Part shown: one piece after another, positions 21,160 through 63,170 of the stretch
Layout of the letters: each line of letters starts with the position of its first letter
Numbering within the stretch: the stretch's first letter is position 1
Source: Anastatus disparis
Lineage: Eukaryota > Arthropoda > Insecta > Hymenoptera > Eupelmidae
NCBI GenBank assembly: GCA_017163975.1
Contig: JAFFSR010000316.1
Span: forward strand, 1,462,001-1,526,000
DNA: 64,000 nt
Direction: 5' to 3'
Position numbers and translations under genes: made by a program
The notes under the pieces: model-generated
Told to the model about the DNA's origin: nothing
The model's input: the letters and a program-made list of their open reading frames with translations, nothing else
Databases searched by the model: none

Positions 21160-21410
21160 TTAGAGCATATACTACTGAAGGCAGCTCTGAATTTACCGTC
21201 TGTGTGGTTAGGTTGAGAAAGAGAAAAATATACTAAGGTTGATAGCTATCTGTATCTCTCAGTCATGTGATAAGGGAGTAGGAAACGAAAAAACCAATCA
21301 TGTGCCGGAGAAAAAGAGATATCTGTCAACCTCAATATACCTTCCTCTCTCTCAACTTAACCACGCGTACGGCGCATTTGAAGCTGCCTCCAGTAGTATA
21401 TGCTCTGAAG
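21160..21410. repeat. palindromic segment at the centre of the 2.24 kb foldback
   Basis: AGAGCATATACTACTG at the left is matched by CAGTAGTATATGCTCT at the right; about 100 bp arms with moderate divergence. Probably another nested MITE. The remaining centre (21411-21754) is unpaired AT-rich DNA. Confidence 0.65.
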
Positions 21411-28894: not shown

Positions 28895-29037
28895 CTGAAA
28901 ATAAATATCATTACATTGAAATTAACTAAATATATGACTGATTCCATTCAGTTTCATGCAGACCGCCACTGATCGGTTTTTTTTCTCTCCTAAGTGATAA
29001 AAATACCTTCCAATATGTATATGATGATAAAACTTAC
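28895..29037 (-). other. putative intron of the 26.1-28.9 kb pseudogene
   Basis: Minus strand: GCGAG|GTAAGT at 29037 and TATTTATTTTCAG| at 28895, nine bases before the ATG at 28886. Good 5' and 3' splice-site matches. The upstream exon (about 29150-29038) would be non-coding. Confidence 0.5.
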
Positions 29038-29181
29038 CTCGCAGAGCACCCAAAAAATGTTTTTTCCTCGCTGCAGCGTATTTAGTGTTGGGTGTAAAAA
29101 TAAAAATTAAAAAATTGAAAATGAACCTCAATTTTTAAATTGCTGTAGCTCCGCCAATTTTTAACCTTAATGGACGTTTTT

Positions 29182-31138
29182 TTAATAAAAATGTGCGAAA
29201 TTCTGTCTAGTTTTAAATGCCGTTTCGATTTTTATAATATGAGTTAACATGCGGATAACAAGAATTTTAATCGACGGAGTATACTTTGACACATGACTGG
29301 CGAAATCTCCAGCATTTCTAATAAAATCAGCACTCTTCTTGTATAGATTATGTGAAGTGGCATAATATTTAACTAAACCACCAATGCCGTCACAAGCACC
29401 TTTACCATGACCTGTTGCAGAAAAAAGCCATTTTCTGCCTACTTCTAAGTTTTGAAGCTCGTGGAATTGATATCTGTTTTTGAAATAACTTGCAGCTCCA
29501 TCAAAAGTGGTTACGACTTCTTCAAGTTCTTGCAAAATATGTTTTTTCTTTTAAGCTGTTGATAATTAAACTCATAACTATCAGGGCATGAGACGAATCA
29601 TGTTTAATATCGTCAGAGACGATGACATAACTGACTGTCTTATCATTTCTAAAATAGTATACTGCTGTGAAAATTGGTAATTGGCTTTTACTCAAATGGT
29701 AGCTTTGAATTTCATTTTGAAGTAGGACTTTCCAATATTCAGCAAAATCAACATAAATAACTAATTGAGATTGACTTTTTTTGCTCAAAGTTTAACCTCT
29801 TAAATTGCAACACGTTGAATTTCTTTAACCATTTTATCTGTACTTACAGTGAAAGTGTGCTCTCTTAACTCAGCTAAGAAATCTTCAACAGTTCTAGTTT
29901 TATTCATTAAATCTGATTTTTCCCAAACACCGTAAGTTATTTCTTCATATAAATCTTCCCCTGTCAAATAAATCACTTTAAAATCAATATTATCTCCAAT
30001 TGGGCATTCTTTACATTCTCTTAGAACACGTTTCATATCTTTTAAACGAAAAATTGAAGAATATATTTTCAATATCAAATCCGCAATGTCATGTTTATTC
30101 TCTTTTTTATATTGATTCAAATCATCCAACATAAGTTTCAAGTTCTTGCAATAAACGCAAACGCAATAGACAAGAATCGTTAGGTGGATGTGTGTATAAC
30201 CCACTTTGGACTTAAGGCATAGAATGTTGATTTATCGATTTTTGTTTTCATTTCAGGATTTTATTCTGTAAATAATTGATATGTTTCTTTTATGCTTCAC
30301 ATAAGAAAGCGTTTAACTTTTTTAGTTTTCATACTATTTTCTTTAACAGATATTGTGTCATTTTTATTTGCACTTTGACGAGAACAATTGAAATCATTGT
30401 TCAAATAATAATCTTTCACTTTTGTTATAATTTCACTATCCAAAGAGTGGCCACAATAGTTCTCAGGCTTTTTATAGATAACTTTATTATTTACCAATGA
30501 TCTTGCTTGATCAATCATATAAACAGTTACATTTGGTAAAACTGATGATAAATAATTTTTGGAAATGTCGCTTGGTACAAGACTTAATAACCGAACTTTC
30601 TCAAGAAAATTTGAACTATTATCTAAAGCAATTTCAATATTTTCAAGCTATTTATAACATGTTTCACATTCATTATTTTCATTTAATGTGGGTGAATCCG
30701 TTATATCGTAGACTTTCATAATTTTACTTGTTATTTGTGAATCAAATGCATCGTTCATTTGTTTTCTTTTGCGAAAAGCATAGGATTTTCGCATTTTCAT
30801 ATTGAGACTCTGAGACATTTTAATTGGTGAAATTTTTATTCCAAATTACTTGAAGTCTGATTGACCTTTTCTACCACAGCATCACTACAAAAAACTTCTT
30901 CCGAAGATTGTTGACTGCTTAAGGTAGATGAAATCGGTGTATTTTTCACTTCATCTAAAAATATTCTGTAACATGAAGGACATACTTTATCTTCTCTAGA
31001 AAAAGAAGTACTTGGATATAAGCGTTCCAAAGACTCCGTTATATCACCTAATTCTCTTAAAGGATTTTTGGACCAATCATAAACATCTTTTTCGTGCCTT
31101 TCTTTAAAATCCTTACATTTACAAAGAGAGGTCTCCAC
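29182..31138 (-). pseudogene. broken transposase-like gene of the GHGKG family
   Basis: Read on the minus strand. An N-terminal open frame (31138-30836) has Cys pairs CKCKD and CPSC. A central region (about 30810-30297, one internal TAG near 30651) carries KVKDYYLNNDFNCSRQ and ends in RFLM. After two stops it continues with YALSPKWV and VCVYCKNLKLMLDDL (30204-29800), then VDFAEYW (29788-29522), FDGAASYFKNR and GHGKGACDGIGG (29535-29182). This order matches a many-copy family of uncharacterised animal proteins that I regard as RNase H-fold, transposase-like; the acidic residues of VDFAEYW and FDGAA would be candidate catalytic positions (inference). At least three shifts or stops kill it. Only about 30-40 bp separate its end from the upstream exon of the next broken gene on the same strand. 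Confidence 0.7.
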
Positions 31139-31262
31139 CTCCAGAAAACGGATTTTTCTGAAACTGCGGGATATGATTTTTCGATGAAAAAAATTGATCC
31201 CGTATTTTCTCTTTTCGTCTAATAGGCCCTAGAGACCAAGATATAGACATTTTTTTTAAATA

Positions 31263-40247: not shown

Positions 40248-40317
40248 GTGATAAAACAATATATCGAAAACAAAAATTCTAGATTATGACCCCAACCACT
40301 GGCCCTTGTTATGTATA

Positions 40318-40960
40318 TTAAGCTACGAAATCCACTTAATAGGGCCAAACTCGGAATAGTACCATATTTTGTCGCTAATTCGTCGCTAATTTGTTGCTCT
40401 ATCCCAGATTTTGTCGCTCCAGCCATTTCCGAGAAACAATGGCTACCGTAGCTTAATATTAAGCTACGGCATCCACTACAGTAACTCAGGAACAGCTAGG
40501 GCTAGCCACTACATTCTAGTTGCATAATTTGTCGCTTATTTGTCCCTCTAAGATAGAATAGTTCGTAAGTCCTAAAACCTGACCCAGACCCGGATATGGC
40601 CTATTGGGCCCTAGTGAAAATAAAAACTTTTTTTCTTAATGTATCTAATAAGTCATTCGATGTTTCATAATTTGTTGCTAATTTGTCGCTGACATTTTAT
40701 CCTATACTGGATTTTGTCGCTCCAGCCGTTTCCGAGAAACAATGGTTACTCTAGCTTAATATTAAGCTACGGTATCCACTACAGTAACTCAGGAACGGCT
40801 AGGGCTAGCAACTCCATTCTGGTTGCATAATTTGTCGCTCTAAGATAAGATAGTTCGTAAGTCCCAAAATCTGACCCAGACCCGGATATGGGCATTGGGC
40901 CGAAGCGAAAATAAAAACTCTATTTTTTAATGCATCTAATAAGTCATGCGATGTTTCTGA
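40318..40960 (+). repeat. left terminal blocks (two copies, 303 bp period)
   Basis: GAGAAACAATGG occurs at 40431 and 40734, a 303 bp spacing. Each block contains GTAGCTTAATATTAAGCTAC, ACTACAGTAACTCAGGAAC, CTAGGGCTAGC and CCCAGACCCGGATATG, plus GTCGCT words. Block 2 runs into the satellite. Confidence 0.9.
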
Positions 40961-43900
40961 TACTAAAGTAGCTATAGAAAATTTGTCACCTTAAATATCT
41001 TTACATCCAAGCACTAAGGAAATTTTTTATGTAAAATTGATTTTAATTGAAATACATTTAGAAATAAGTCACTCTTGATAATTAAAACAATTATGACTTT
41101 AAGCGCAATTAGAAGATATTTTTGATCTTACTGAGGCTTTAAGGATTTTGTTGCTCTAGTGATTCTTTGAACTGGACACTCTAAATATATTCTTTTGTTT
41201 GAGTTTTTGGATTTGGATACGTCTGGAAATTTTTCGCTGATGATATTTAAATAAATTTAAACTTTCAATGCAATAAAAATATGATTTTAATACGACAGAA
41301 GCTACAAAGATTTTGTCGCTCTAAAAATCTATAATTCCTAACACGCTAAAGAATTTTTATGCAAATTTTCGTGATTAAAATATATCTAGAAATTTGTCAC
41401 TCTTGATATTTAAACGGATTAACACTTTAAACGCCATATTAAGATGATTCTGATACTACAGAAGCTTCGAGCATTTTGTCGCTCTAAGAATTTATGATTG
41501 CTAGCACTATAAAATAATGTTTCTGCAAATTTTGTGATTATCATACATCTAAGAATTAGTCGCTCTTGAAATTGTTGATTATCAGACCTTTAAAAACAAT
41601 AAAATATATTTCTGATATCACAGAAGCTGCAAAGGATTTGTTGCTTCTTAATTAATAGCATCTAAGCACATAGAAAATACTTTTATGCAAGTTTTTTAAA
41701 TTGGAATAAATTGAAGAGTTGGTCGCTTCTGATATTTGTAACTATTAAGACTTTAAATGCAATGTACAGATGTTTGTGACCTTACTGAAGCTTTAAGGAT
41801 TTTGTCGCTTTAGTAATTCTTTAGTCAGCTCACACTAAATATTTTTTTATATCAGTTCTTCAATTTACATGCGTCTGGGAATTTGTCGCTCATGATATTT
41901 GAACGAATCATAACTTCAAACGAAATTAAAATATGATTCTAATACAACAGAAGCTTCAAGGAGTTGGTCTCTCTTGAAATTTACGATACCTGGAGCTATA
42001 AAATGATTTTTATGCAAATTTTGTGATTTTCAAGCATCTGATTATTTGTGGCTCTTGAGATTGTTAACCATCAGACCTTTAAAAACAATAAAAAGATATT
42101 TCTGATATCACAGAAGCTGCAAAGGATTTGTTGCTTCTTAAGTAATAGCATCTAAGCGCATACGAAATACTTTTATGCAAGTTTTTTGAATCGGAATGAA
42201 TTAGAGAGTTGGTCGCTTCTGACATTTGTAACCACTAAGACTGTGAATGCAATGTAAAGATGTTTGTGACCTTAGTGAAGCTTTGAGGATTTTGTCGCTC
42301 TAGTAATTCTTTAATCAGCTCACTCTAAATATTTTTTTTATCAGTTCTTCAATCTACATGCGTCTGGGAATTTATCGCTCATGATATTTGAACAAATCAT
42401 AACTTTAAACGCAATAAAAATATGGTTCTGATAAAACAGAAGCTTTAAGGATTTTGTCGCTCTTAAAATCTACAATTCCTAGAGCTATTAAATAATTTTT
42501 ATGCAAATTATGTGATTTTCATGCATCTGGGAATTTGTCGCTCTTGAGATTGTTAACCATTAGACCTTAGAAAACAATAAAAAGATATATCTAATATCAC
42601 AGAAACTGCAAAGAATTTGTTGCTCCTAAATTAATAGCATCCAAGCGCATACGAAATACTTTTATGCAAGTTTTTTGAATTAAAATGAATTAAAGAGCTA
42701 GTCGCTTCTAATATTTGTAACTATTAAGACTTTGAATGCAATATAAAGATGTTTGTGACCTTACTGAAGCTTTAAGGATTTTGTCGCTCTAGTAATCCTT
42801 TAATTAGCTAACACAAAATATTTTTTTATATCAGTTCTTCAATTTACACGCGTCTGGGAATTTGTCGCTCGTGATATTTGAACAAATCATAGCTTTAAAC
42901 GAAATAAAAATATGGTTCTGATACAACAGAAGCTTCAAGGATTTACTTGCTCTTAAAATATACAATTCCTAGGGCTATAAAATCATTTGTATACAAATTT
43001 TGTGATTTTTATGTATCGGGGAATTCGTCGCTCATGAGATTGTTAACCATTAGACCTTTTAAAACAATAAAAAGATATATGTGATTTTACGGAGGCTGCA
43101 AAGAATTTGTTGCTCCCTAATTAATAGCATCCAAGCACATAGAAAATACTTTTATGCAAGTTTTCTGAATTGGAATGAATTAGAAAGTTGGTCGCTTCTG
43201 ACATTTAGACTTTTAATGCAATGTAAAGATGTTTGTGACCTTACTGAAGCTTTGAGGATTTTGTCGCTCTAGTAATTCTTTAATCAGCACACTTTAAAGA
43301 TTTTTTTTTATCAGTTCTTCAATTTACATGCGTCTGGGAATTTGACGCTCATGATATTTGAATAAATCATCACTTTGAACGCAATAAATATATGATTCTA
43401 AAACAACAGAAGCTTCAAGGATTTTGTCGCTCTTAAAATCTACAAATGCTAGAGCTAGAAAATCATTTTTATACAAATTTTGTGATTTTCATGCATCTGG
43501 AAATTCGTCACACTTGAGATTGTTAACCATTAGATCTTCAAAAACAATAGAAAGATATCTGTAATATCACAGAAGCTGCAAAGAATTAGTTGCTCCCTAA
43601 TTAATAGCATTCAAGCACATAGAAAATACTTCTATGCAAGTTTTTTGAATTGGAATGAATTAGAGAGCTGGTCGCTTCTGACATTTGTAACCATTAAGAC
43701 TTTGAATACAATGTAAAGATGTTTGTGACCTTACTGAAGCTTTGAGGATTCTGTCGCTTCAGTATCTCTTTAATCAGCTCACTCTGAATATTTTTTTTTA
43801 TCCGTTCTTCAATTTACATGCGTCTGGGAATTCGTCGCTCATAATATTTAAACAAATCATAAATTTAAACGCAATAAAAATGTGGTTCTGATACAACAGA

Positions 43901-44262
43901 AGCTTCAAGGATTTTTTCGCTCTTGAAATTTACAATTCCTAGAGCTATAAAATGATTATTATGCAAATTTTGTGATTTTTATGCATCTGGGAATTTGTCG
44001 CTCTTAAGATTGTTAACCATTAGACCTGTTAAAACAATAAAAAGATATATGTGATTTTACGGAAGCTGCAAAGAATTTGTTGCTCCCTAATTAATAGCAT
44101 CCAAGCACATAGAAAATACTTCTATGCAAGTTTTTTGAATTGGAATGAATTAGAGAGCTGGTCGCTTCTGACATTTGTAACCATTAAGACTTTGAATACA
44201 ATGTAAAGATGTTTGTGACCTTACTGGATTTAAAGAATTTGTCGCTCTAGTAATTCTTTATT
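40960..44262 (+). repeat. left satellite array, 490 bp higher-order repeat of about 163 bp monomers
   Basis: GCGTCTGGGAATTTGTCGCT-type words start at 41871, 42360, 42850, 43330 and 43820: periods of 489, 490, 480 and 490 bp. Each unit holds three related monomers of about 163 bp with GTCGCT motifs: one with CATGATATTTGAAC, one with TTGTTAACCATTAGACC, one with GGTCGCTTCTGACATTTG. A diverged unit at about 41219 precedes these. No ORF of interest. Confidence 0.9.
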
Positions 44263-44647
44263 TATCTTAAAATTTATGAATCAATTAGTTTAAAATCGTA
44301 ACCAAATAATCTTTATAGTACGTACAAGTTCATGCATTTCTTTTCCTAAAATTTTGCAGTCAAATAAAAAAGTTGATATTTATGAGTACAGGTGCATGAA
44401 AACTTAAAAAAAAATACTGAAGGCGAAAATAAGAATATGGTTTTAATTTGTAAAAAAAAATATTTTCTTTCAAAAACAGAAATTAATTTAATCACTTCCT
44501 TTTCAAGGAAAGTTGGAATAACTTTTAAATGCATAATCATTTGCTGTAACCTTTAGTTTTTAGATTATTTATATTTTCCTGCAGAAGAAAAGGATTTTCA
44601 AAATTCATTTATTGTCATTAGAGAAAATATTGTTTTCTGTTATATAC
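44263..44647. other. interior left of the LINE
   Basis: Contains a half-copy of the 9.5-9.8 kb inverted-repeat element (about 44335-44395, TATTTATGAGTACAGGTG). The rest is unassigned. Confidence 0.5.
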
Positions 44648-44836
44648 ATCAAAACTCAGTCGCGTCTGATACGCCATACGATACAGACGTGTTTGTAAGA
44701 TAGCTCTTTGTTTACATTCTGTCTCATTAGATAGGCGTCTGTTTAGTGCGTATAAATTTTCGAAATAGCAAGACTATGTCTACGGGCCGACAAAGAATAA
44801 TTTCCTCTCGTGTCCTGGGCTTGTGATTTCGTGTAT

Positions 44837-46328
44837 ATGAACAACGAGCTGGAGGTTGCGCAGGCACCGGTTGTTGAGGACGGCAATGGTGTCAGCAACA
44901 ACAAAAATCATAGAGGTTATATTAGTTTGAGTGAAATTTTTAAAAAAAGCATCATTGGCTACCGAGGACGGTAGTAATGCTAGTGCTATGCAAAATTCTA
45001 GTGACATTGTGTTGTTAGAAACTAAAAACAAAGAAATCAGTGAACCGGATTTGCCCTGCAAGCATTTAACTCATAGTTAGAATAAAAAGTTATCATACTC
45101 AAACACTACTTAAAGAAGTTTTTTACCTTCATTTGGTCAATCGCTTATTCTCTCAGTAATTGAAGGTTTCACAAACGATCAATACATGGACCAATTTGAG
45201 AAAATAATGCCTATAGAAAATTTACTGGCTTTCTCCAACATCTCTGAAAGCAGGGTTTGTTTTACATTCAATTCAGAAAATGGAGCTCTTGATTTCATCA
45301 ACAAAACAAATCAAAGCAAAATCGAGGTAAGCGGCAAAATTTTAAACTTTACTGCATACGACTCTAGAAGCGTTATACCGAAATACAAGCGCTTTGTTAT
45401 CTCCAATGTTATGCCGCAAATTCTAAATGATTTAATTATAGATCAACTCAAGAAGCTTAATGTAAAAACAAGAAACGGCATTACAAACATTAGGTGTTCT
45501 ACTTCAAATGAAAGCCGGAGACATATAATATTCTATCGCAGGCAATTTTATATTAAAGAAAGCGATGTTGACAAAGTACCACACAAAATTAAAATAAATT
45601 TCCAAGACATAAATTACTGGCTCTTCCTAGGTACTAAAAATATTAAATGCCACTTTTGCAAAGAAGCAGGACATATTGCAAAATACTGCCCTACATTTGT
45701 CAAGGAAATAAATCTAACTCAAGAAACTGAGACTAACCAAACCCAAGAATCAACTATTGATACCATCCCTACTGTCAACATGAACAGAGAAGACACAACA
45801 CCATTTCAAGAGGACATGGAAGTAGATAAATCTCTATAAAGACCAATAGATGCTTTGACCAGCTCTAGCAACCTCTCTATCGACACAGATCTGAATGAAT
45901 ATCCCAACTTTAAGCTACCATCGCTCACAACAGATAACAAGCCTAGAAATCCAAACAAATAAAACAAAAAAAAAATTAAAACAATCAAAAGCACAACGAG
46001 TAGTGAAGATAACAGTAAAAACAGTGAGATTGGGGAACGAGAAGAAGACTTAGATAACGCATTAGATTCAATTAAATTCATTTATAATCAGGACAAATTC
46101 GAAAATGTCTTAGACTACAACCAATTAAAAAAATTTCTTAAAAAAGTTAAATTCCAAAGGGAAGTGGTAGGGATAAGCAAAGATTTTACACCAGACACTC
46201 TATCTCTAATAAACTGGCTCGCGGTACTTGAATCTAAGATACTAAACAACAACCTCAAAAATCGTTTTAAATCTTTGCTAAAAAAACTGAATAAAGATCT
46301 AGAAAAAATAGTTGACCCTCCTACCTAG
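44837..46328 (+). pseudogene. LINE ORF1 (Gag-like, one CCHC knuckle), about 497 codons with stops
   Basis: A start at 44837 (MNNELEVAQ) shifts frame in an A-run near 44940. From there one frame runs to the TAG at 46326-46328, interrupted by TAG 45078, TAA 45111, TAA 45837 and TAA 45960. The longest open part (45186-45839) encodes an RRM-like region and the zinc knuckle CHFCKEAGHIAKYC (CX2CX4HX4C) near residue 155. The tail is Glu/Lys/Asn-rich (SEIGEREEDL). ORF1 proteins of this type bind the element RNA. Codon-level conservation despite stops shows fairly recent death. Confidence 0.85.
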
Positions 46329-49300
46329 GTCAAGTATCTACTAAATTATAAAATTCTTTTTCTACGCAATGTTTAGTCAAGATTACAAAAATAATAATTC
46401 AAACAAAATAAAAATGCTATACCGGAATTTGAGAAGTTTGAATGCTTGCAAACATGAGTTGGAAAATATCATACAAGACTACGACATAATTGTAGGAGTT
46501 GAAACATGGCTTGATACCAATTCCAATATTAATTTTACTGGATTTAACATACATAGAATTGACCGTCCTGCTGTACAGGGACAGGGTGGAGGCATTATAT
46601 TTATATTGAGATACGGTATAGACTTTAGTCACATAGACTTCTCTCTGCCTAATACTGGAATCGAGGTGGGAGATATTAAGATTCGTACTAGCTCTCAAAA
46701 ATTCAATATTATAACCTGTTACAAGCCGCCACATATTCACCCTACTTATAGCAACTGGAATCAAATCATTGGTAATCAACATATAAATAAAGAGCCCGGT
46801 GTGATAGTTGGTGACTTTAACTCACACCACTTAAACTGGAATGGCGAACATACTGACAACAATGGCAAAATATTGCTGCCTGCACTCGATTCAAATAAGA
46901 TGATTATACACAATAACAACTCTTTTACACACATAGATGCTGCCAGGAAGAAAAAGTCTAACATTAACCTCATCATTTTCTCCACTTGCATCGCCGACCG
47001 CATTTACTATCAAGTTGACGACGATCCACATGGCTCTGACCACTACCCGATCAACCTTATTACTGACTTCAAAAAATCCGTATATCATAAAACTTCGATA
47101 AAATCCATTCAAAAAGAACAAACTGAATAGAAATCGACAATATCTTAAATAAAACATACAAAAATTTTTTTAATTCAGAATACCAAAACGCCTCAGCTAT
47201 AGACAAATACGACTATTGGGTTCAACAAGTTAAAACAGCTGTCATTAACAACACGCCTCCCAAAAGGAAAGTTTCAGATTCCATTCATCGGAATCCAGTT
47301 CCATGGTGGAACAATGAATGTGATAAACTCAAAAGAATTCGCGAGGCCAACTATAAAAAATGGGAATACTCAGGCACTCAACAAGATTATTTAAACTACC
47401 TCAATTCAGATAAAACTCTTCGCAAAACTTTAAAGAAAAAGAAATTTGAAAGTTATAAAAAGTTCACCGAAACCATAGACTTCCGAAATAACAGCAAATA
47501 TGTTTGAAACAAAGTTAAAACCTTCAAAAACAAATGGATCAAGACAAGCGCACCAAATCATGACAGGACACTATTCAAGATTCAAGCTGAAAAAAGTCTC
47601 AACAAAATTGCACCACTTACACTTCCTGGCAATACTTCTAAGGCGGTTCCTAAGATTACCACTAAAAATCAATCATTTTTTGATACTCCATTTGATTTCC
47701 ACGAGCTCAACACCGCTCTTCAGTCCAGGAACAAGCATTCTAGTTGCGGGATCGATGAAATTGATTATAATATGTTAATAAACATTCCAATTAAATACAG
47801 ATTAGAACTCCTGGATATTTTTAATCAAATGCAATTAACAAATTTATATCCCTCAAGCTGGAAAGAATTATACATACATTTTATTACCAAACCCGATGGA
47901 TTGGGTCTCAGACCCATAGCGATGACCTCGTGCCTTTCCAAGATGTATGAACTTATGATCAAAAACAGACTGCAATGGTTCTGTGAACATAATTCAATTC
48001 TTTCTAGCTCAAACTCTGGATTTAGAAAAGGACGCTCTTGTAACGACAACCTCACAAACTTAACACTATATATAGAAGATGGGCTGCTCAAAGGTAAATC
48101 CACACTAGCCGCCTTTCTCGACATACAAGGAGCTTTCGACAATGTGGATCTTAAAATTCTTACCACCAGACTTGCAGAAATTGGGTGCTCACTCTCAGTG
48201 ATCAAATTTGTACAACACCTTACTCAACAACGCTTTATTTATACTGAATTTAACCAGAATAATCCACGCTTCACAAATAAAGGTATACCACAAGGAGGAG
48301 TTTTGAGCTCTCTACTTTATTTAATCTATGTTGCTGATATTACAGAAGGCATATCCAAATTTATACGAGATTCTCAATTCGCCGATGATATAACTCTCCA
48401 CGAAAAACATACTTCCGCTAAATAAGACTAGAAGTTTACTTACCGAGGGAGTAGAAATCATTAGGACCAACTTGTTTAAGCTGGACCTTTCTCTAAATCT
48501 TAAGAAAACAAAACTGATTTATTTCAACAGTAAAAAAATAACTCCAGGCAGCATCTCAATCACTATAAATGGGCAAAAAATAAAATCTACAGATTCAACA
48601 AGATTTCTTGGTATTATATTTGATTATGAAATGTCCTTTAAACAGCAAATCAGAATCCTTTCCATCAAGTGCCAAAAAGCTCATAGAATATTAAAATAAA
48701 TTTATAGAACATGGTGGGGGTCACACCCCGAGACCCTACTTAGACTCCATCAAAGCCTCATACGCTCCATCATTGATTATGGGATTAACACTTATTTTCC
48801 TAAAACGAAAGCTTTAGTCAACTCTTTAGGAAGGTTGCAATACGCACCTCTGCAAACTGCTATGGGATATCATTTTTCTACTCCTAAAAATGTTATATTG
48901 GCAGAAACCAAATTCACCACCATCAAAGATAGAGCTATGTACTTGGGATGCAATCATCTAACTAAGGCCCTTTCCAATGAAGATAATTCAGCGCACAAAA
49001 CGATCAAAAATTTCTTTAAACTACACAAAAATAGTAAACTTAAGAGAAAAAGACTAATAAGCGAGTGCGTAAACAGGCTAGTCCAATACATTAACAAAAT
49101 ATTATATACAAGCAAGAGGGAGGATTTCTATTCATTTGATTATCATGTAATTCACTACTCTCCTGATGTAAATTTCGAAATAGGTAAAATTCTTCAAAAT
49201 ACCAACAACCCTAACCATATCTTGGAGATTTGTCTAGCAGATGCAGAGGCAAATAGATTTTTTACTGATGGTAGCAAAATAGCAAACTCTCCTTCTGTTG

Positions 49301-49504
49301 GATTCCCCTGTGTCTCCAATGTCTCTAGAACAGTCAGTGCAGTCAGTGTAAACAATCACTGCTCCATTTACACAGCCGTAGTTGCAGCTATAAATACTGC
49401 ACTTGACCTAACTAACAAAAACAGGCACCAAAGAAACATCATCTTATCCGACTCTCAAAGTGTCCTACAAAGTCTACAAAGTAATAAACCAGCCTCACTT
49501 AGTC

Positions 49505-50186
49505 ATCCCCCACACAGCATGAAAGATTGTTGCAAGGTTGCTGCAAGGTTTCATGAAAGTTTCGAAACTTCGCAGCAACCTTTCATGAAAGATTGCAGCA
49601 ACATTTATATGTCCGCGCTGGAACCCGGTTGAAATATTTCTAAAAACCTCGCAGCAACCTTTCATGAAAACCTCACAGCAATATTTCAGGAAATGTAACA
49701 GAAACATTTCAAGAAACCTTGCAGCAATCTTTTAGAACACCTCGCCGCAACCTTGCAGGAAACCTCGCAGCAATCTTTCAGGAAATGTAACAGGAACATT
49801 TCAAGAAACCTCACAGGAATCTTGCGGGAAAAATAGCAAAAACATTTCAAGCAACCACACAGCAATTTTTCAGAAAATCTCGCCGTAACCTTGCAGAAAA
49901 CCTCGTAGCAACCTTTTATGAGATATTGCAGCAACATTTATATGTCCGCGATAGAACCCGGTTGAAATATTTCTAAAAACCTCGCAGCAACCTTTTATGA
50001 AAACCTCGCAGCAACATTTCAAGAAACCTTGCAGCAATCTTTCATGAAAGGTTTCTCGTAATATTTCATGAAATTTTTCCCAAATTTTGCCGCGAACAAC
50101 GCTCATACCTTTCCGTATGGTTTCCTGCAATATTTTGTAAAATATTTCTTAAACCTTGCCAAAAGCTTACTGCAGTAATATTTACT
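49505..50186 (+). repeat. minisatellite in LINE ORF2, first part (CCTCGCAGCAACCTTTC words)
   Basis: Irregular units of about 24-35 bp built on CTCGCAGCAACCTTTCATG, plus a larger duplication of 333 bp (ACATTTATATGTCCGCG at 49601 and 49934). ORF2 reads into it in frame until a stop at 49630. It ends at an inserted MITE. Confidence 0.85.
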
Positions 50187-50559
50187 AGTAGGCAGGATTT
50201 TCTATCCTTGTGTGATAAAGTTTTTCTTATTTGCTTAAGTATCAATCGCTCTATCTATAAATTACTAGTTGAGCGCAATAGTATTATTATCAATATTTGT
50301 GCACAAGAAGAAAAAATTCCTCAGCATCGTTTTTGAGAAAAGTAGAGGATATTGAAATTTGTTTCTAATATTAATGCGTTCTTTACTTTTTTCAATAACA
50401 ATTCGATGGATTTTTTTACCCTACGCATAAATATTTATAATAATAGCATACTTATTGCGCTCAACTTCCCGTTTACAATACAACTACAGCAATAAATACT
50501 TGAGTAAATAACAGAAAACCAAATATAAGGCTAGAACAGCGAATCTGGACTGCTCTTAG
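50187..50559. repeat. hairpin MITE, TTAAGAGCAGGCCG family, copy 5
   Basis: The left end TAGTAGGCAGGATTTTC and right end GAATCTGGACTGCTCTTA are diverged forms of the family termini. The core matches the 10.4 kb copy (arm words GTGCACAAGAA and TTTTGAGAAAAGTA). It separates two parts of the ORF2 minisatellite. Confidence 0.75.
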
Positions 50560-52250
50560 AATCTTTTATAAAAACTTGCGGAATGATTGCTGAAACTGTT
50601 TATGAAAGGTTTGCTGCAATTTCATTTTGAAATTATTCATGAAACTTTGCTGATACTTTTTATGAAACGCTTTTCTGGAATATTTTATAAAGATTGCCAA
50701 AAATATGGTAATAACCATTGGCGAAATGTACATAGCAATATTTTTTGTGATATCTTAGAAATCTTGTCAAAAACCTTGCAGAAATCTTACTGCAACTTTT
50801 AACAAAAGATACCTCGTAATATTTCATAAAATATTCATCAAATTTTGCTGGAAACCTCGTTGAAACCTTTCATAAAAGGTATCTTGCAATATTTCGTAAA
50901 ATGTTTCTAAAATCTTGCACGAACCTTGCTGCAACCTTTCATCAAAGGTCTCTTGCGATATTTCGTAAAATGTTCCCCAAATCTTGTGAGGAACCTCACT
51001 GAAACCTTTCATGAAAGGTTTCTTGCAATATTTTATAAAATGTTTCTAAAATCTTGCAGGAACCTCGCTGCAATCTTTCATGAAAGGTTTATTGCAATAT
51101 TCTATGAAAAGTTCCCCAAATCTTGCTGGAAAACTCGCTGAAACCTTTCGTGAAAGGTTTCTTGCAATATTTCATGAAATGTTTTTAGAATCTTGCAGAA
51201 ACCTCGCTGCAACCTTTCGTGAAAGGTTTCTTGCAATATTTTATAAAATGTTTCTAAAATCTTGCAGAAAGCTCGCTGCAATCTTTCATAGAAAGTTCGA
51301 TGCAATATTCCATCAAAATGTTGTCTAAATCTTGCTGAAAATCCCGCCGAAACATGTAATAAAAGTTTTCTTGCAATATTTCATGAAATGTTTTTAAAGT
51401 CTTACAGAAACCGCGCTGCAACCTTTCATGAAAGGTTTCTTGCAATATTTCATGAAATATTTCTAAAATATTGCAGAAAACTTGCTGCAACCTTCCATGA
51501 AAGGTTTTTTGCAATATTCCATGAAATGTTTTCTAAATTTTGCTGAAAACCTCGCTGAAACATGTCGTGAAAGTTTTCTTGCAATATTTCATGAAATGTT
51601 TCTAAAATCTTGCAGAAACCTCGCTGCAACCTTTCGTGAAAGTTTTCTTGCAATATTTCATGAAATGTTTCTAAAATCTTACAGAAACCTCGCTGCAACC
51701 TTTCATGAAAGGTTTCTAGCAATATTTCATGAAATATTTCTAAAATCTTGTAGAAACCTCGCTGCCACCTATCATGAAAGGTTGCTTGCAATATTCCATG
51801 AAATAATTTCTAAATCGTACTGAAAACCTCGCTGCAACCTTTCGTGAAAGTTTTCTTGCAATATTTCATGAAATATTTCTAAAATCTTACAGAAACCTCG
51901 CTGCAATCTTTCATGAAAAGTTTCTTGCGAAATTTCATGAAATATTTCTAAAATCTTGCAGAAACCTTGCTGCAACCTTTCATGAAAGGTTCCTTGCAAT
52001 ATTTTATGAAATGTTTTCTAAATTTTGCTGGGAACCTCTATGCAACCTTTTATAAAAGGTTTCTTGCAATATTTCATGAAATATTCCTAAAATCTTTCAG
52101 AAACCTCGCTGCAACCTTTCATGAAAGGTTTCTTGCAATATTCTATGAAATGTTTTCTAAATCTTGCTGGAAACTTCGTTGAAACATGTCATGAAAGTTT
52201 TCTTGCAATATTTCATGAAGTGTTTCTAATATCTTGCAGAAACCTCGCTC
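50560..52250 (+). repeat. 69 bp-period minisatellite in LINE ORF2, open on both strands
   Basis: CTCGCTGCAACCTTTCATG recurs about every 69-70 bp (for example 51203, 51272, 51343, 51412), some 24 units. Because 69 is 23 codons, long frames persist on both strands: plus-strand FHEMFLKSCRNLAATFRESF-like and minus-strand FHEILQETFHERLQRGFCK-like repeats. The plus frame joins ORF2 again at about 52250. Whether anything is translated is unknown; it is best regarded as an expanded minisatellite. Confidence 0.9.
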
Positions 52251-52688
52251 GAAAAAACAAAAACCTAACAAGAAGGAATATAGTCACGATTAATAGGCTA
52301 AGAGCGAATTACTACAGCTCCGCAGCTTCCTTAGCCAGAAAAAATATAGTTGACTCCTCTTCGTGCACATGCGGACACACTATCCAAGACGCAGATCATT
52401 TGTTATGGCACTGCCCACTATATCAGCTACAACGTTCAAAAATGCTCTCTAAGCTAAACGAAAACAAGATCCAAGCACATCAAAACATAAGTGCTAATTT
52501 AAAAAGAGTAAACGTTAAAGTGATTAAAATAATATGTGAATTCTTTACTAATTGTATAATCTCATTATAATGTAAAATTTATAAATATTTTTAGCAATAT
52601 ACATGTAACTTTTTTCTTTGTAAAGCTGTATAAACCTTTTTAGGTTTGGGTAGGCTTAAATAAATAAAAAAAAAAAATAAATCAAAAC

Positions 52689-52849
52689 TAGTTTTTTACA
52701 ATTGTCTTCGGTCGCTAGTTTTTATAATATAATAAATTAGTTAATAAAATAAAGACAGAGAGATACAACAGTCTCCTACTATCAGTATAAAAAAGCAGAT
52801 TACGTTGCAGAGTTGCAGTAAAAGTCTAAATGGCTAGAAATATCGAGAG
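52689..52849. other. interior right of the LINE
   Basis: 160 bp of non-repetitive AT-rich DNA between the LINE target duplication and the right satellite. No gene. Confidence 0.5.
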
Positions 52850-55848
52850 CAAAAAATTTTTAGGACCATTTTTTTTTTTACTAAATGTCTTTAGCTTTAA
52901 ATACCAAGATCGACTAATTCTTTAATTCATTTAAATAAAAAAAATTGCATTGAAACATTTTCCATGTGCTTGGATTTAAAGATTTGTAGAATTACAAATT
53001 CCTTGCAGCTACTGTAGTATATCAGGAACATCTTTAGATTGCGTTTGGAGTATAAATGGTTGAGAATCCCAAGAACGAAAAATCTCCAGATGCATTACAA
53101 ATCTTCGAAAAATTTTCGGAGCGACAAAATACTTGAAACCTCAGTAACGTGATAAAATTTTTTTTATTTCACTAAAAATCTTAATAGCTTTAAATACCAA
53201 GATCGACTAATTCTCTAATTCATTTTAATTAAAAAAACTTGCATAAAACATTTCCTATGTGCTTGGATTTGAAGATCTTTAGTGCAACAAATTCTTCATA
53301 GTTATTGTAGTATCGAAAACATCTTTTTATCGCGTTTCAAGTATTGATGGTTAAGAAACTCAAGAGCAACAAATTACCAGATGCATAAGAATCACAAAAA
53401 TTTGCATAAAAATCATTTTGGCGTGCTAGGGTCCATGGATTATTAGGGCGACAGAATCCTTAATTTGTTGTATCAAAATCATCTTTTTATTGCGTTCAAA
53501 GTATTAATGGTTAAGAATCTCAAGAGTCAGAAATTACCAGATGCATTAGAATCACGAAAATTTGTAAAAAAATCATTTTGGCGTGCTAGGGTCCATGGAT
53601 TATTAGGGGGACAAAATTCTTAATCTATTATAACAAAATCATCTTTTTATCGCGTACAAAGTTTTAATTTATTCAAATATCATTAGCGACCAATTCTTAG
53701 ACGCATCTTCATTAAAAAACTAACAAAAAAATATTAAGATTATGCCGATTGAGGGAATACTAAATCGAAAAAATCTTTAAAGCCTTAGTAGGGTCCAAAA
53801 ACTTCTTTTAACTGAACTCAAAATCTTAATAGTTTCAAATATCAAGAGCGACAAACTCTCTAATTTATTACAATTCAAAAAACTTACATAAAAACATTTT
53901 CTATGTTTTAGTTCAAAGTATTGATAGTTGATAATCTCGGAAGCGACAAATTTTCAGACGAATTTAAGTTCAAAAACTTATATGAAAAAATATTTAGAGT
54001 TGGCTGATAAAAGAATTACAAAAGCGACAAATTCTTTAGGCCTCAGTAAGGTCTCAAACATCTTTTAATTGCACTAAAAGTCCCAATAGTTTCAAATATC
54101 AAGAGCGACAAACTCCCTAAATCATTTCAATTCAAGACACTTGCATAAAAACATTTCCTATATGCTTGGATTTAACGAATTAAGGAACAACAATTATTTT
54201 TATAAGCAAGCTATTCTTTTCAGATACTGTGATATCAGAAATAACTTTTTATTGCGTTAAAAGTATTAATGGTTCTCAATCTCAAGAGCGACAAATCTTC
54301 AAATACATAACCATCACAAAAATTCTCACGGAAATCATTTTAGCGTGCTGGGAACCGTAGATTTTGAGAGCGACCAAATCCTTGAAGCTTCTGTTGTATC
54401 AGAATCATATTTTTATTGCGTTTGAAGTTATAATTTATTCAAATATTATAAGCGTCAAATTCCCAGATGCTTGAAAATCACAAAATTTGCATAAAAATCA
54501 TTTAATAGTACTAGTAACCATAAGTTTTTAAAGCGACAAAATCCTTGAAACTTCTGTACCATCAGAATAATCTTTACATGGCGTTTGAAGTGTTAATTTG
54601 TTCAAACATCATGAGCGACAAATTCCCAGACGCATTTAAGTTCAAAAAATTCTATAAAAAAATATTTAGAGTGAACTGATCAAAGAATTACTAGAGCGAC
54701 AAAATCCTTAAAGCTTCAGTAAGGTTACGAAAATCTTTTAATTGTATTCAAAGTCTTCATAATTATGAATGTCAGAAGCGACTAACTCTCTAATTCATTC
54801 CAATTAAGAAACCTTGCATGAAAACATTTTCTATGTGCTTGGATGCTATTAATAAAGAAGCAAAAAATTCTTTGCAGTTTCTGTGATATCAGAAATAACT
54901 TTTTATTTTTTTCAAATGTCTGATAATTAACAATCTCAAGAGCAACAAATTCCTAGATGCATGAAAATCACAAAATTTGCATAAAAATCATTTTAGCGTG
55001 CTAGGAACCATAGATTTTTAAAGCGACAAAATCCTTGTAGCTTATGTTGAATTAGAATTATATTTTTATTGCATTGAAAGTTTAAATTTATTTAAATATC
55101 ATGAGCGACAAATTTCTAGACGTATCTAAATCTAATAACTTAAAAAAAAGAATTATTATTCATTAGTAGAGTTTAACGACAGTGTAAATAATTCCTTTAA
55201 TAATGATACAAACAACTATTAACTGTCAATAATACTTTTTATTGCTGGTTAATCATACAACGTTTCAGTCATATTTTTGATGACCCTTTTCAAGTGCAAA
55301 AAATTGATTTAAATTAATTTACATAATTATGAGTAACATTCTTTTCCTGAAACATAACATATAAATACATATAATTTTTTTACTTGATAAAATTTACAAA
55401 ATCAATGACAATTAAAATATCAAAGTCTCAATTATAACCTTTCAACTCTCCAAAACCAATAATAAATATTATAAAATCCATTAAAAAACAATTTTACAAT
55501 AAACATTGCTATTTAAACAATTAATAATAGAAACCATTAAGTAGTATAGGTTTCAGTCTATAGTATAAATAAGCTATAAAGAAAGACGATCAAACAAGAA
55601 GCAGTGAAGTCGTTCACAACAATAGTTAAACAGAAATCATAAGGAGGATAACACAATTGTGAGCTACCAAGTTAAAAGATATTTATGTAGTAGGGCGCTG
55701 TTGCCGTATGTACCCATTAGCACATGCGTGTGTGTACTTTGAATTAAATGTATTAATTATAAAAAGAATAAGAATAAAAGAGAAAGCGTAAAGAACAATT
55801 TGAAAGATTAACTATAGTAAACTAATGAATACTAATATAATTATATAC

Positions 55849-55881
<33 letters not shown>

Positions 55882-55928
55882 TGTACATATACACACAAAA
55901 ACATCATTTGTGAAAATAAGAAACATTA

Positions 55929-56936
55929 TCAACTCCGATTCTCAATCCTAAAGTCACCATCAATATAATCTTTAAAAACAGTTAACAACTTTTGTGTATC
56001 AAACATTCTATTGATATTATTCTTGTGAATGTGTATATTAATCATTTCAGATACCAATCTTTTATAGTAATTGCACTCATTATCAAGGATTTTAACATTA
56101 TTAATATCAAAATTCATACTATGACCGGTGTTTAAAACATGAGTATAAAGGGCCGATCTTTCACGTTTATGCAAACAATCAGACCTATGCTCCTTAATTC
56201 GAGTTTCAAGAGTTCTACCGGTCTGCCCAATGTAACAACCATTACAATCATTGCAGTTTATTTTATATACAACATTATTTTTTAATGATTTTTTTGTGAT
56301 ATCCTTACCCTATTGTGAATTGCATTTAATTTTGTTGTTAAGACTAAAAATTAATTTAAAATTGAATTTTTTACATATGTTTTTAAATGCAAATTCATGG
56401 GACCTTGAATAAGGAAATACAATTATATTATTGGACTCTGAATAATATTTATCATTTAAATTGTGGTGACTATGTTTATTTTGGATAATTCTTTTGTCAA
56501 TATACTTATTTATAAACTCTATTGGGTAATTGTTGCCAATAAGCATCCTTCTAATAATATTGAAATTCTTCACATGAAACCTTGTGTCTGAGAGTTTGAG
56601 AACTTCATCCACCAACGAAAACACTATGCCAATCTTTTGAGAAATAGGTCCATGAGAATGGAAGTTCAAGTATAGTCCCGAGTGAGTGTCCTTGAGATAC
56701 CAATCCGTAGTAATGTTGCTTTTATCATTGAAATCAATGTTGACATCTAAGAAGTGCAAGGTGCCGTTTACAGGTTTTTCCAACGTGTGTTGTATGTGCT
56801 GATCAACAGAATTAAAAGCAGTAAGAATCTTGTCAATGTCACTACTCCTAGCACAAATTAAACTATCATCGACATATCTTCTGTAAAACAATATTAATAT
56901 TATCAATATTATTAGAAGGATGCTTATTGGCAACAA
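55929..56936 (-). pseudogene. Penelope-like RT C-terminal half plus GIY-YIG endonuclease (left copy)
   Basis: The frame 56936-56310 starts just upstream of the RT active site YVDD (about 56876) and includes GTLHFLDVNID and LNFHSH, the typical Penelope RT. A TAG at 56308-56310 interrupts what continues as GKDITKKSL, then the GIY-YIG domain with CYIGQTGRTLETRIKEHRS, ending in ILDNECNYYKRLVSEMI and a stop at 55929. The right copy has Leu instead of this stop. 5'-truncated: about the first half of the RT is missing. Confidence 0.9.
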
Positions 56937-57537
56937 TTACCCAATATAGTTTATAAATAAGTATATTGACAAAAGAATTATCCAAAATAAACATAGTCAC
57001 CACAATTTAAATGATAAATATCATTCAGAGTCCAATAATATAATTGTATTTCCTTATTCAAGGTCCCATGAATTTGCATTTAAAAACATATGTAAAAAAT
57101 TCAATTTTAAATTAATTTTTAGTCTTAACAACAAAATTAAATGCAATTCACAATTGGGTAAGGATATCACAAAAAAATCATTAAAAAATAATGTTGTATA
57201 TAAAATAAACTGCAATGATTGTAATGGTTGTTACATTGGGCAGACCGGTAGAACTCTTGAAACTCGAATTAAGGAGCATAGGTCTGATTGTTTGCATAAA
57301 CGTGAAAGATCGGCCCTTTATACTCATGTTTTAAACACCGGTCATAGTATGAATTTTGATATTAATAATGTTAAAATCCTTGATAATGAGTGCAATTACT
57401 ATAAAAGATTGGTATCTGAAATGATTAATATACACATTCACAAGAATAATATCAATAGAATGTTTGATACACAAAAGTTGTTAACTGTTTTTAAAGATTA
57501 TATTGATGGTGACTTTAGGATTGAGAATCGGAGTTGA
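56936..57537 (+). pseudogene. Penelope-like RT end plus GIY-YIG endonuclease (right copy)
   Basis: Same product in the opposite direction. It begins at MLIGNNYPI, has its own TAG (about 56968) where the left copy has Glu, and the RT-GIY linker is open here (SQLGKDITKKS). The GIY-YIG domain (CYIGQTGRTLETRIKEH, about 57227) is intact to the stop at 57535. The YIG Tyr and the Arg of the ETRIKEH helix are present, so the nuclease fold looks complete. No RT active site in this copy. Confidence 0.9.
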
Positions 57538-57583
57538 TAATGTTTCTTATTTTCACAAGTGATGTTTTTGTGTGTATATGTAC

Positions 57584-57587
<4 letters not shown>

Positions 57588-57650
<63 letters not shown>
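57588..57650. repeat. (TA)n microsatellite in the Penelope 3' region
   Basis: About 30 TA units. The mirror site in the left copy (about 55848-55869) has only 11-12, so this tract has changed length since the copies arose. Confidence 0.9.
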
Positions 57651-58958
57651 ATTATATTAGTATTCATTAGTTTACTATAATTAATCTTTCAAATTGCTCT
57701 TTACGCTTTCTCTTTTATTTTTATTCTTTTTATAATTAATACATTTAATTCAAAGTACACACACGCATGTGCTAATGGGTACATACGGCAACAGCGCCCT
57801 ACTACATAAATATCTTTTAACTTGGTAGCTCACAATTGTGTTATCCTCCTTATGATTTCTGTTTAACTATTGTTGTGAACGACTTCACTGCTTCTTGTTT
57901 GATCGTGTTTCTTTATAGCTTATTTATACTATAGACTGAAACCTATACTACTTAATGGTTTCTATTATTAATTGTTTAAATAGCAATGTTTATTGTAAAA
58001 TTGTTTTTTAATGGATTTTATAATATTTATTATTGGTTTTGGAGAGTTGAAAGGTTATAATTGAGACTTTGATATTTTAATTGTCATTGATTTTGTAAAT
58101 TTTATCAAGTAAAAAAATTATATGTATTTATATGTTATGGTTCAGGAAAAGAATGTTACTCATAGTTATGTAAATTAATTTAAATCAATTTTTTGCACTT
58201 GAAAAGGGTCATCAAAACTATGACTGAAACGTTGTATGATTAACCAGCAATAAAAAGTATTATTGACAGTTAATAGTTGTTTGTATCATTATTAAATTAA
58301 AAAAAAAGAATATATTTAGAGTGTCTAGTTCAAAGAATCACTAGAGCAACAAAATCCTTCAAGCCTCAGTAAAATCAAAAACATCTTTTAAATGCGCTCA
58401 AAGTCTTAATTGTTTTAACTATCAGGAACGACTTATTCCCAAATGCATTCAAATTAAAATCCAGTTTACATGAAGAATTTTCTTTGTGCTTGGATGTAAA
58501 GATATTGAAAGTGACAAATTTTCTATAGCTACTTTAGTATCAGAAACATCGCATGACTTATTAGATACATTCAGAAAAAAAGTTTCCATTTTCACTCGGG
58601 CCAAATGGCCATATCCGGGTCTGGGTCAGATTTTGGGACTTACGAACTATCCTATCTTAGAGTGACAAAAAAGCGACAAATTATGCAACCAGAATGAAGT
58701 TGCTAGCCCTAGCCGTTCCTGAGTTACTGTAGTGGATACCGTAGCTTAATATTAAGCTAGAGTAGCCATTGTTTCTCGGAAACGGCTGGAGCGACAAAAT
58801 CTAGTATAGGATAAAATGTCAGCGACAAATTAGCAACAAATTTTCAAACATCGCATGACATTTTAGATACATTAAGAAAAAATATTTTCATTTTCACTTG
58901 GGCCCAATGGCCATATCCGGGTCTGGGTCAGGTTTTGGGACTTACGAACTATTCCATC

Positions 58959-59383
58959 AAGAGCCGGTCTGTGGCACAGTCGGTAGGAGCGTTGGATTCG
59001 TATTCTCGGGGGACCGTGGATCGAATCCCGCTCTCGGCTGTTTTTCAAGCTAGCACCTCTGTTACATGTGCTATGTTTTTCATAAAACACACTTACAAGC
59101 TCCGTCGTTAAAGGACGAAAAGTAACTCAGTTGCCAAAGGCAGCTGGCTTGCGTCCTAGTGGATCGGGGTTGGACTCCCTGGGAAAATTGGGAAAAACAA
59201 TTTTCGTAGTTTTCCGTAGGGAAGAGAACCCGAAGAACACAAAAATACAAAATAGAGAGTTCCTTGGAACAATACAAAAATTTAATAATAAAAAGTCCCC
59301 TCGGGGCAAAAATAATTAATAAAAATAAAATGATGATGGCTTATGATGATAAGTCGAAAGGCCAATTGAAGAAAGAAGAAGAA
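58959..59383 (+). mobile_element. tRNA-derived SINE with 13 bp target duplication
   Basis: The head resembles a tRNA with an A box (TGGCACAGTCGG, about 58973) and B box (GGATCGAATCC, about 59026), the internal RNA polymerase III promoter. The body is unrelated; the tail is GAAGAAAGAAGAAGAA. GAACTATTCCATC (58946-58958) and GAACTATTCTATC (59384-59396) flank it, and the sister block at 58650 shows the uninterrupted site. The ORFs over it (58872-59319) are not genes. Confidence 0.9.
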
Positions 59384-59399
59384 GAACTATTCTATCTTA

Positions 59400-59708
59400 C
59401 ACTGGAAAGGGGTTAGAACAGTGGTTGTACTCTATGGCGGCGAGTGGCGCTAGTATCGATAGCGAACATTCATTGAAGTACGAGAGAGATGCTAGTGTTT
59501 TCTAGAGGATAATGAGTGCTCTCTGCGAGGTTTTGAGTGTTCTCCGCGATGTTTTTTGTTCGAAGAAATGAGCAGATCTTCGCTCAGAGAATAATGAGTC
59601 TTCTCTAGAGACTACTAGTTCGCATTTCGACGCGTAGGCTGACTGTATTCTAAAAATGACACCGATTGTACCGTAGAGTACAGTCACAGTTCGCTTCCCT
59701 TTTCAGTG
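59400..59708. mobile_element. 309 bp TA-flanked MITE (Tc1/mariner-like)
   Basis: CACTGGAAAGGG at the left and CCCTTTTCAGTG at the right, with looser similarity for about 45 bp inward (GTACTCTA words). TA on both sides (59398-59399 and 59709-59710). The sister block (TATCTTAGAGTGAC, about 58650) is the empty site. Confidence 0.85.
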
Positions 59709-59940
59709 TAGAGCGACAAAAAAGCAACAAATTATGTAACCAGAATGGAGTTGCTAGCCCTAGCTGTCCCTGAAATACTGTAGTGGATGCCGTAGCTTAA
59801 TATTAAGCTACGGTAGCCATTGTTTCTCGGAAACGGGTAGAGCGACAAAATCCAGGATAGAGCAACAAATTAGCGACAAAATATGGTACTATTCCCAGTT
59901 TGGCCGTATAAAGTGGATTCCGTAGCTTAATATACATGGT

Positions 59941-61935: not shown

Positions 61936-62043
61936 ATATTATTTATGATTAATTATATAAGGTATATAAACTCAAAAAATTTTATGATTTTCCAAAACCA
62001 TGTGGTTTTCAAAAACCACTAGGTGAATTGAAACGAAAAACTA

Positions 62044-63170
62044 TCCCTACTGAAAAAGCCAAGTGATTAATCACTTGATTTATCATTTGATTTATCATCT
62101 TATTTATTATATTATTAATCACCTGATAAATTACTTGACTTTATGACATGATCTGACCGGTGATTAATCAAGTGAAAAATCATGTGATTAATCAGATGAA
62201 AAATCAGGTAATGAAATGAAATGAAAAATCAGGTGATTAATCAAGTGGAAAATCAAGTGATTAATCAGATGAAAAATCAGGTAATGAAATGAAATGAAAA
62301 ATCAGGTGATTAATCAAGTAAAATATCAAGTGATTATTTAGGTATCATGATTCATTCTATAGGTTTTATTTGTATCTATATTATATTTTTATTAGTTGAC
62401 CAATATAACATAGTTTTAATAATCGAGGATTTCAATGGTAGAAATCAAAGATACAATCTTAAATGTTTTCAACATCTATTGAATTATAGAGCAGATGCAA
62501 AAACAATACATAAGAATATATACAATGCCGATACATTAATCATATTCATATCACCAAGTTTGCATTAATTTTAGGGAATAATTGGGTACATATACACATG
62601 AAGAAAGCCAAAATTTCAGACTTCAATATTACCATGGTAATATTGAAGTCTGATAAATTAAAAAAAATTAATGCAAACTTGGTGATATGAATATGATAAA
62701 TTTATCGGCATTGTATATATTCTTATGTATTGTTTTTGCATCTATTCTAAAATTCAACAAATGTTGAAAACATTTAAGATTGTATCCTCGATTATTAAAA
62801 CTATGTTATATTGAACTAATAAAAATATAATATAGATACAAATAAAACCTATAGAATGAATCATGATACCTAAATAATCACTTGATATTTTACTTGATTA
62901 ATCACCTGATTTTTCATTTCATTTCATTACCTGATTTTTCATCTGATTAATTACTTGATTTTTCACTTAATTAATCACCTGATTTTTCATTTCATTTCAT
63001 TACCTGATTTTTCATCTGACTAATCACATGATTTTTCACTTGATTAATCACAGGTCAGATCATGTCATATAGTCAGGTGATTTATCAGGTGATTAATCAT
63101 ATAATAAATAAGATGATAAATCAGATAATAAATCAAGTGATTAATCACTTGGTTTATTATCAGTAGAGAT
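62044..63170. mobile_element. foldback built of ATCAGGTGATTAATC subrepeats
   Basis: Two arms of about 550 bp meet near 62635 (CCATGG) with nearly no loop. The outer part of each arm is a tandem series of GTGATTAATCAAGTGAAAAATC words of about 22-24 bp. The inner part is unique AT-rich DNA (ATAGGTTTTATTTGTATCTA). The outermost bases CTACTGA...CCAAGTGATTAATCACTTG match at both ends. The 73-residue frame at 62347-62568 has no recognisable domain. Confidence 0.85.

Follow-up and report, generated by a model that had tools for sequence, protein, structure and literature searches.

A giant inverted-repeat structure in Anastatus disparis, very probably a decayed copy of a foldback-type transposon family with satellite-bearing arms

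Arms, blocks and nested insertions of the window copy

The window, i.e., the whole stretch of DNA analysed here, comprises 64,000 nucleotides of the eupelmid wasp Anastatus disparis (assembly GCA_017163975.1, contig JAFFSR010000316.1, forward-strand positions 1,462,001 to 1,526,000), and contains a structure with two long inverted arms of block and satellite DNA, hereafter the window copy. Arms and outer limits were obtained from self-BLAST of the window and repeat finding. The arms lie at 40311-44261 (left) and about 52.8-59.94 kb (right), and arm-to-arm homology stops at 40311 and 59937, respectively. The inversion described in the initial annotation is real rather than a chance resemblance, and the palindrome that borders the blocks is found at four sites in the window (two exact, two with one mismatch) against an expectation of zero. 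The two arms of the window copy are mutually only about 70-95% identical. The features of the window copy are as follows, including a long interspersed nuclear element (LINE) with a reverse transcriptase (RT), a short interspersed nuclear element (SINE) and a miniature inverted-repeat transposable element (MITE).

40311..40457, forward: left outer end with the shortened outer block (ATGTATATTAAGCTACG...), holding four TTTGTCGCT-type motifs at no more than one mismatch
40458..40760, forward: terminal block of ~303 bp bounded by palindromes, 40448-40467 (exact) and 40751-40770 (one mismatch)
40761..40949, forward: third block, grading into satellite
40950..44261, forward: left-arm satellite of 163-bp monomers with a 490-bp higher-order period and one inward motif per ~82 bp
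44262..44656, forward: element-core remnant left of the LINE; 44552-44656 matches the relative L024, the remainder matches other copies in short pieces only
44657..52680, forward: nested LINE with endonuclease and RT domains and internal 23/69-bp minisatellites
52681..52812, reverse: element-core remnant right of the LINE
52813..55153, reverse: right-arm satellite (inverted), with the inward motif
55154..58296, no strand assigned: head-to-head pair of presumably Penelope-like fragments with a GIY-YIG domain (Pfam) and an A-rich flanking duplication of ~14 bp
58297..58958, reverse: end of the right-arm satellite with the third and second terminal blocks; palindrome 58741-58760 (one mismatch)
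58959..59383, forward: nested tRNA-type SINE with a 13-bp duplication GAT[A/G]GAATAGTTC, read by eye
59400..59708, no strand assigned: nested MITE with ends CACTGRAAAGGG and a TA duplication, read by eye
59709..59937, reverse: right outer end, with the shortened outer block and the start of the next block; palindrome 59792-59811 (exact)

From the outside inwards, the left arm begins with the shortened outer block (~141 bp), continues with a block of ~303 bp and then has a third block that runs into the satellite; each arm had instead been annotated as starting with two full 303-bp blocks. The same order is present, inverted, in the right arm, where it is broken by three insertions. The base unit of the satellite is 163 bp and comprises two motif-bearing halves of ~82 bp. 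The proposed 490-bp period is the strongest in the left arm (0.565), however, in the right arm it comes second (0.399) to 163 bp (0.424). The arm length given as 3-4 kb applies to the arms' own sequence, i.e., 3950 bp on the left and pieces summing to 3153 bp on the right, but the right arm is stretched to about 7.1 kb because of its nested insertions.

The motif TTTGTCGCT occurs in exact form 19 times in the left arm and 17 times in the right, pointing inwards in all cases, and is absent in exact form from the core of the window copy and from the window outside the element. With one mismatch allowed, the nested inserts that interrupt the right arm contain none, and five are scattered outside the arms.

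The interior LINE, which the initial annotation had rightly considered independent, is flanked by its own 9-bp target duplication, ATCAAAACT, at 44648-44656 and 52681-52689, and the relative L024 (contig C205) retains the uninterrupted target site with 280 of 304 positions matching across the joint; together, the empty site and the flanking duplication place the insertion of the LINE in the core of the element. The best named relatives of its RT are from Trichogramma, Bracon and Trichomalopsis, which by itself points to a parasitoid-type wasp as the probable host. Tandem repeats of 23 bp and 69 bp (3 x 23, in frame) at 49643-50049 and 50758-52249 sit between the frames 48700-49632 and 52091-52570, apparently, as judged by eye, within the second protein, and a minisatellite in frame within a LINE protein would be unusual. 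The paired fragments in the right arm, which we take to be Penelope-like on account of their GIY-YIG and RT-like frames, have 1.4-kb arms that are 97% identical (55196-58296) and resemble a palindromic retroelement dimer.

Elsewhere in the window, a nested palindrome at 16384-22762 has inner arms that are 99.7% identical over 1533 bp and represents either a young foldback or an assembly effect, and a 1.1-kb self-palindrome at 62043-63170 contains 24/73-bp repeats of GTGATTAATCA type.

Paired ends and target duplications across the assembly

The assembly searched (939 Mb, 399 contigs) contains 525 exact sites of the palindrome, and the outer end, at no more than two mismatches, is matched 198 times in forward and 197 times in reverse orientation, with none in the control. 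Scans of viral and prokaryote collections with the palindrome gave no hits. Among 100 ends listed, all of them exact, 27 convergent pairs spaced by 2.0-42 kb were recognized by eye. The partners of the C5b, C25 and C6 ends were found on reading the DNA; they differ by at least one base, and therefore fall outside the exact-match list. Outer ends shared by many loci and paired inverted arms elsewhere in the genome, both suggested by the initial annotation as checks, are thus present.

So are defined target duplications. The 27 listed pairs, the three pairs completed by reading and the window copy give 31 pairs, of which 21 agree at all nine positions of their 9-bp flanks and six more at 8/9. 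When left and right flanks are compared across different copies, agreement of at least 8/9 is obtained in only 6 of 930 pairings, and these six arise because C99, C27 and C230 share both the duplication and flanking DNA. The latter three copies (L052-L055, L072-L073) represent one duplicated insertion, and can be used to date arm conversion. Copies of 27, 31, 36 and 42 kb also have exact target duplications; they were read at their ends only, and nested insertions may account for their length. The outer end is conserved in 20 aligned paired copies, and 2 of 40 ends deviate at one of the first four bases.

Solitary ends were encountered as well. At L020 (C7:511394), a left end followed by about 1.1 kb of arm has no right end within the 3.5 kb read beyond it and looks like a lone arm, and in C229 two right ends lie 88 bp apart (L030 positions 231 and 319) beside a separate paired element.

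The inward motif is a property of the family. In 16 copies, TTTGTCGCT is the commonest of 52,263 9-mers and is present in 32 of 32 halves, with 569 occurrences directed inwards and 30 outwards when the element midpoint is taken as the axis. With one mismatch allowed and the best axis chosen for each of 15 copies, 1046 of 1067 sites agree in direction, and all 15 copies read whole carry the inward motif on both sides. Of 968 motif intervals shorter than 200 bp, 457 measure 81 or 82 bp and 141 measure 11 bp. Furthermore, a satellite profile seeded on one repeat without the motif (458 hits) shows its highest conservation at two motif sites, 82 bp apart. Judged from sequence, the motif array in the arms is a putative transposase-binding array.

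Transposase, shared core and arm growth

A transposase gene, which the initial annotation had anticipated inside some copies, is present in one of them, C99 (18.9 kb). The gene is split by a palindromic insert of ~0.7 kb (L044; 94% self-complementary); an intron between the two open reading frames (ORFs) was considered and discarded, since the gap is this insert. Altogether 26 copies were read, 16 of them whole and 10 in the central 4 kb only, where an outlying transposase would escape. Relatives of the transposase include tick, rotifer and wasp proteins that are without Pfam annotation, and the named ones are annotated as unnamed, hypothetical or uncharacterized. On the basis of VIA rows, the model of a close relative shows an integrase-like fold of DDE type, and the RNase H-like catalytic core that defines DDE/D transposases, with its three acidic residues, is contained in the predicted structure. 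Foldseek gave no match at E <= 0.001, and no Mutator-like element (MULE) structure is among the VIA rows, an absence that is uninformative. A search of PDB sequences with the transposase profile gave 0 hits.

Domain searches assign the protein to no established family. The C99 ORFs have no match in NCBIfam, and Pfam detects the MULE domain PF10551 neither in them nor in 25 relatives and 10 distant relatives. Likewise, Pfam finds no P-element or THAP domain in the C99 ORFs or the 25 relatives, and no PHD finger in the same set, where a diverged finger is still possible. Matches occur only below the curated cut-offs (the best being Helicase_IV_N, 0.0041; DUF4428, 0.0058; and OTU, 0.0011, in one distant relative). 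Outside the element, the window contains at 28202-31228 (reverse strand) a degraded relative of the C99 transposase, 28-55% identical in pieces.

A core of ~4 kb is shared by C117 and the copies compared with it, i.e., C5a, C6, C14b, C25 and C36. In C117 this core contains no frame of at least 100 amino acids, and the long frames in other cores are part of a LINE that we presume to be CR1-like. In the eight LINE-bearing copies found (C14b, C25, C36b, C81, C36a, C44, C135 and C214b), this LINE adjoins one and the same (TA)n tract within the core, as compared on its 5' side only, and all eight element copies have exact target duplications, no two of which are alike, while C117b, C5a and C35 have no LINE at that core site. 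The simplest reading is one insertion of the LINE that was carried along by transposition. The interior of C25 (L012-L013) also contains a long simple repeat of GGTTTATGG type.

The arms of the family combine a shortened outer block with palindrome-bounded blocks of ~302 bp and 163-bp satellite, and vary in composition. Block number is unequal between the arms of single copies, the satellite profile gives 9 hits in the left arm of C6 and 43 in the right, and the satellite arms of C131 and C229 meet within about 10 bp. In C1 (L018-L019, C1:995880-1012279), one arm comprises 54 block intervals of ~302 bp over 16.4 kb, followed by 163-bp satellite, and no exact right end is listed on the contig; with this expansion, foldback and satellite need not exclude each other. 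The inner arms of C99 agree with each other at 99.6% over stretches of 2706 and 1373 bp, with 87% identity in the outer parts, whereas the corresponding sequence in C230 and C27 shares 97.0-98.0% identity with the arms of C99. Since the C99 arms are closer to each other than to their counterparts in the duplicated loci, they were made alike after the loci had separated, which would fit arm-to-arm conversion or renewed inverted copying. Arm-to-arm matches in the other copies read are mostly 75-96% identical.

Interpretation and comparison with known systems

Foldback elements are recognized by long inverted arms in pairs, composed for the most part of tandem sub-repeats, and by a target duplication of fixed length (here 9 bp, with 2/9 in the window copy itself), and we consider the window structure to be, with high probability, a non-autonomous and partly decayed copy of a cut-and-paste family of this type with giant terminal inverted repeats. 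The initial annotation had offered a giant non-autonomous foldback or a satellite block in inverted form, and the shared ends, paired arms, 9-bp duplications and C99 transposase favor the former. It is very improbable that a plain satellite array was inverted by chance with no transposon involved. The arms are indeed mostly tandem repeat, the C1 copy has about 54 block intervals of 302 bp head to tail with no listed right end, and lone ends occur, however, paired ends with 9-bp duplications, a core common to several copies and a transposase within C99 are not features of such an array, and for the family the paired ends and duplications rule it out. Even less credible is an inversion created by the assembly: palindromes are frequent in the window and the C99 inner arms are nearly identical, but the window arms have diverged to about 70-95% identity and exact but differing target duplications accompany paired arms at 21 loci.

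Several observations weigh against the foldback interpretation or parts of it. Among the 100 listed ends, 46 have no listed partner, and the duplications are poor at C205d (6/9), C229 (3/9) and C116 (1/9). The transposase is found in 1 of the 26 copies read and is interrupted there, the satellite of C205a is confined to one arm, concerted evolution could also yield the conservation of the motif, and the (TA)n stretch of the core could be a repeated target of the CR1-like LINE. Finally, the window copy is without a target duplication (2/9; flanks GCCCTTGTT and GGTCCAAGA), and the identity between its outer arms (0.922) does not exceed their identity to arms of other copies (0.925); across the 20 aligned copies, identity is 0.954 between own arms and 0.944 between different copies, with 0 of 10,000 permutations as high.

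The mismatched flanks imply that the ends of the window copy no longer record a single insertion. That two half-elements, derived from separate insertions, were joined in it by recombination, deletion or inversion has close to an even chance in our judgement, and would be compatible with the foldback interpretation of the family. Such an origin would account for the flanks and for own-arm identity that does not exceed identity to other copies, but the two arms agree in uncommon variants (AAACTSGG following the end and CTCTAGCTTAATATTAAGCTACGGTATCC at the inner block boundary), and the core on either side of the LINE is contiguous with that of one relative, L024. The window copy is probably an old copy with two recombined ends.

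For the foldback family, a mechanism can be envisaged in which the transposase would bind the repeated motif co-operatively, cut at the outer ends ATGTATATTAAGCTACG and insert with a 9-bp stagger. Unequal exchange between repeats would lengthen and shorten the arms, and arm-to-arm conversion within one copy would re-homogenize them. The window copy would have been mobilized in trans and later have been invaded by the LINE in the core and, in the right arm, by three insertions, and its flank mismatch would most simply reflect ectopic recombination between two copies. More speculatively, and in a form that we think unlikely to hold in full, an undescribed transposase clade may drive the family, with the arms as putative binding arrays phased by selection on the ~10-bp motif and by arm conversion, and with copies seeding new satellite. 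If so, transposase docking would explain the repeat period of the satellite and its conserved core, and the motif array would be a direct handle on why such satellites have their period. This one genome with long contigs shows the steps between satellite and transposon together, i.e., a transposase-bearing copy, pairs spaced by 2-42 kb, a LINE carried by eight copies, an expanded arm and apparent arm conversion.

The comparison with Foldback and Galileo elements made in the initial annotation is apt with respect to structure, but the 9-bp duplication points to the Mutator/Rehavkus type. Target duplications in the Galileo/P superfamily are 8 bp long, and Pfam detects no P-element or THAP domain here. 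The length of 9 bp lies within the 8-11 bp of MULEs, in the absence of a PF10551 match. Foldbacks whose arms contain tandem repeats have been described, and several of them show duplications of 8-10 bp (PMC4079207, PMC3169594, PMC4168063, PMC10218199).

Tetris of Drosophila virilis, with its TIR-220 satellite, resembles the present family as a foldback with long inverted arms of arrayed tandem repeats; its arm repeats are ~220 bp and form arrays with as many as 66 copies, its duplications are 8-10 bp, and the copies known in that account are without transposase (PMC4079207). Tetris arms, however, are at most 1.7 kb, with three structurally complete copies described, compared with arms of several kb and 395 end matches here, and the present family differs in the two tiers of its repeats, with palindromes at the block borders, its regular inward motif and its one transposase-bearing copy. 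Galileo of Drosophila likewise has long arms and is also tied to chromosomal inversions; its longest D. willistoni copy has arms of 4.2 and 4.7 kb with ~140-bp tandem repeats (PMC4168063), and multiple transposase sites in the arms have been described (as cited in PMC4079207). In contrast to the present family, its transposase is of the P superfamily with a THAP domain, and direct tandem arm repeats are described in that D. willistoni copy only. Tm1 Mutator/Foldback elements of root-knot nematodes combine variable composite arms with 9-bp duplications, and of the three groups, one has a transposase gene (PMC3169594), whose product is Phantom-like, whereas the transposase here matches no Pfam family. 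A 2026 survey of arthropod MULEs covers 322 types in 222 species, whose elements reach 10 kb; the arm lengths given are 13-1193 bp in the text, with a maximum of 1527 bp in the table and values of 126-514 bp in Hymenoptera (PMC13359780). The surveyed types include long-armed Mutator-type elements, but the arms here reach several kb.

In period and duplication length, there is a close likeness by description to the Rehavkus group, for which a 9-bp duplication and a PHD finger are listed (PMC6446971). Whether the family is a true, Mutator-related Rehavkus element is a possibility to which we give somewhat less than even weight. It shares the 9-bp duplication, the inverted termini of the 9.5-kb Rehavkus-1_TC of Tribolium castaneum hold a 164-bp satellite (PMC10218199) compared with 163 bp here, and a DDE-type catalytic fold is predicted for a transposase relative; on the other hand, Pfam reveals neither a PHD finger nor PF10551 in the C99 ORFs or the 25 relatives, and the longer arms and terminal blocks set the family apart from Rehavkus-1_TC by description. 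An account of this family was not found in the open-access literature searched. From its sequence, the family would appear to work like a Mutator-type foldback, Rehavkus-like in period and duplication length when compared by description only; elements of this kind are known, and the family itself looks new, as do the layout of its arms and its transposase.

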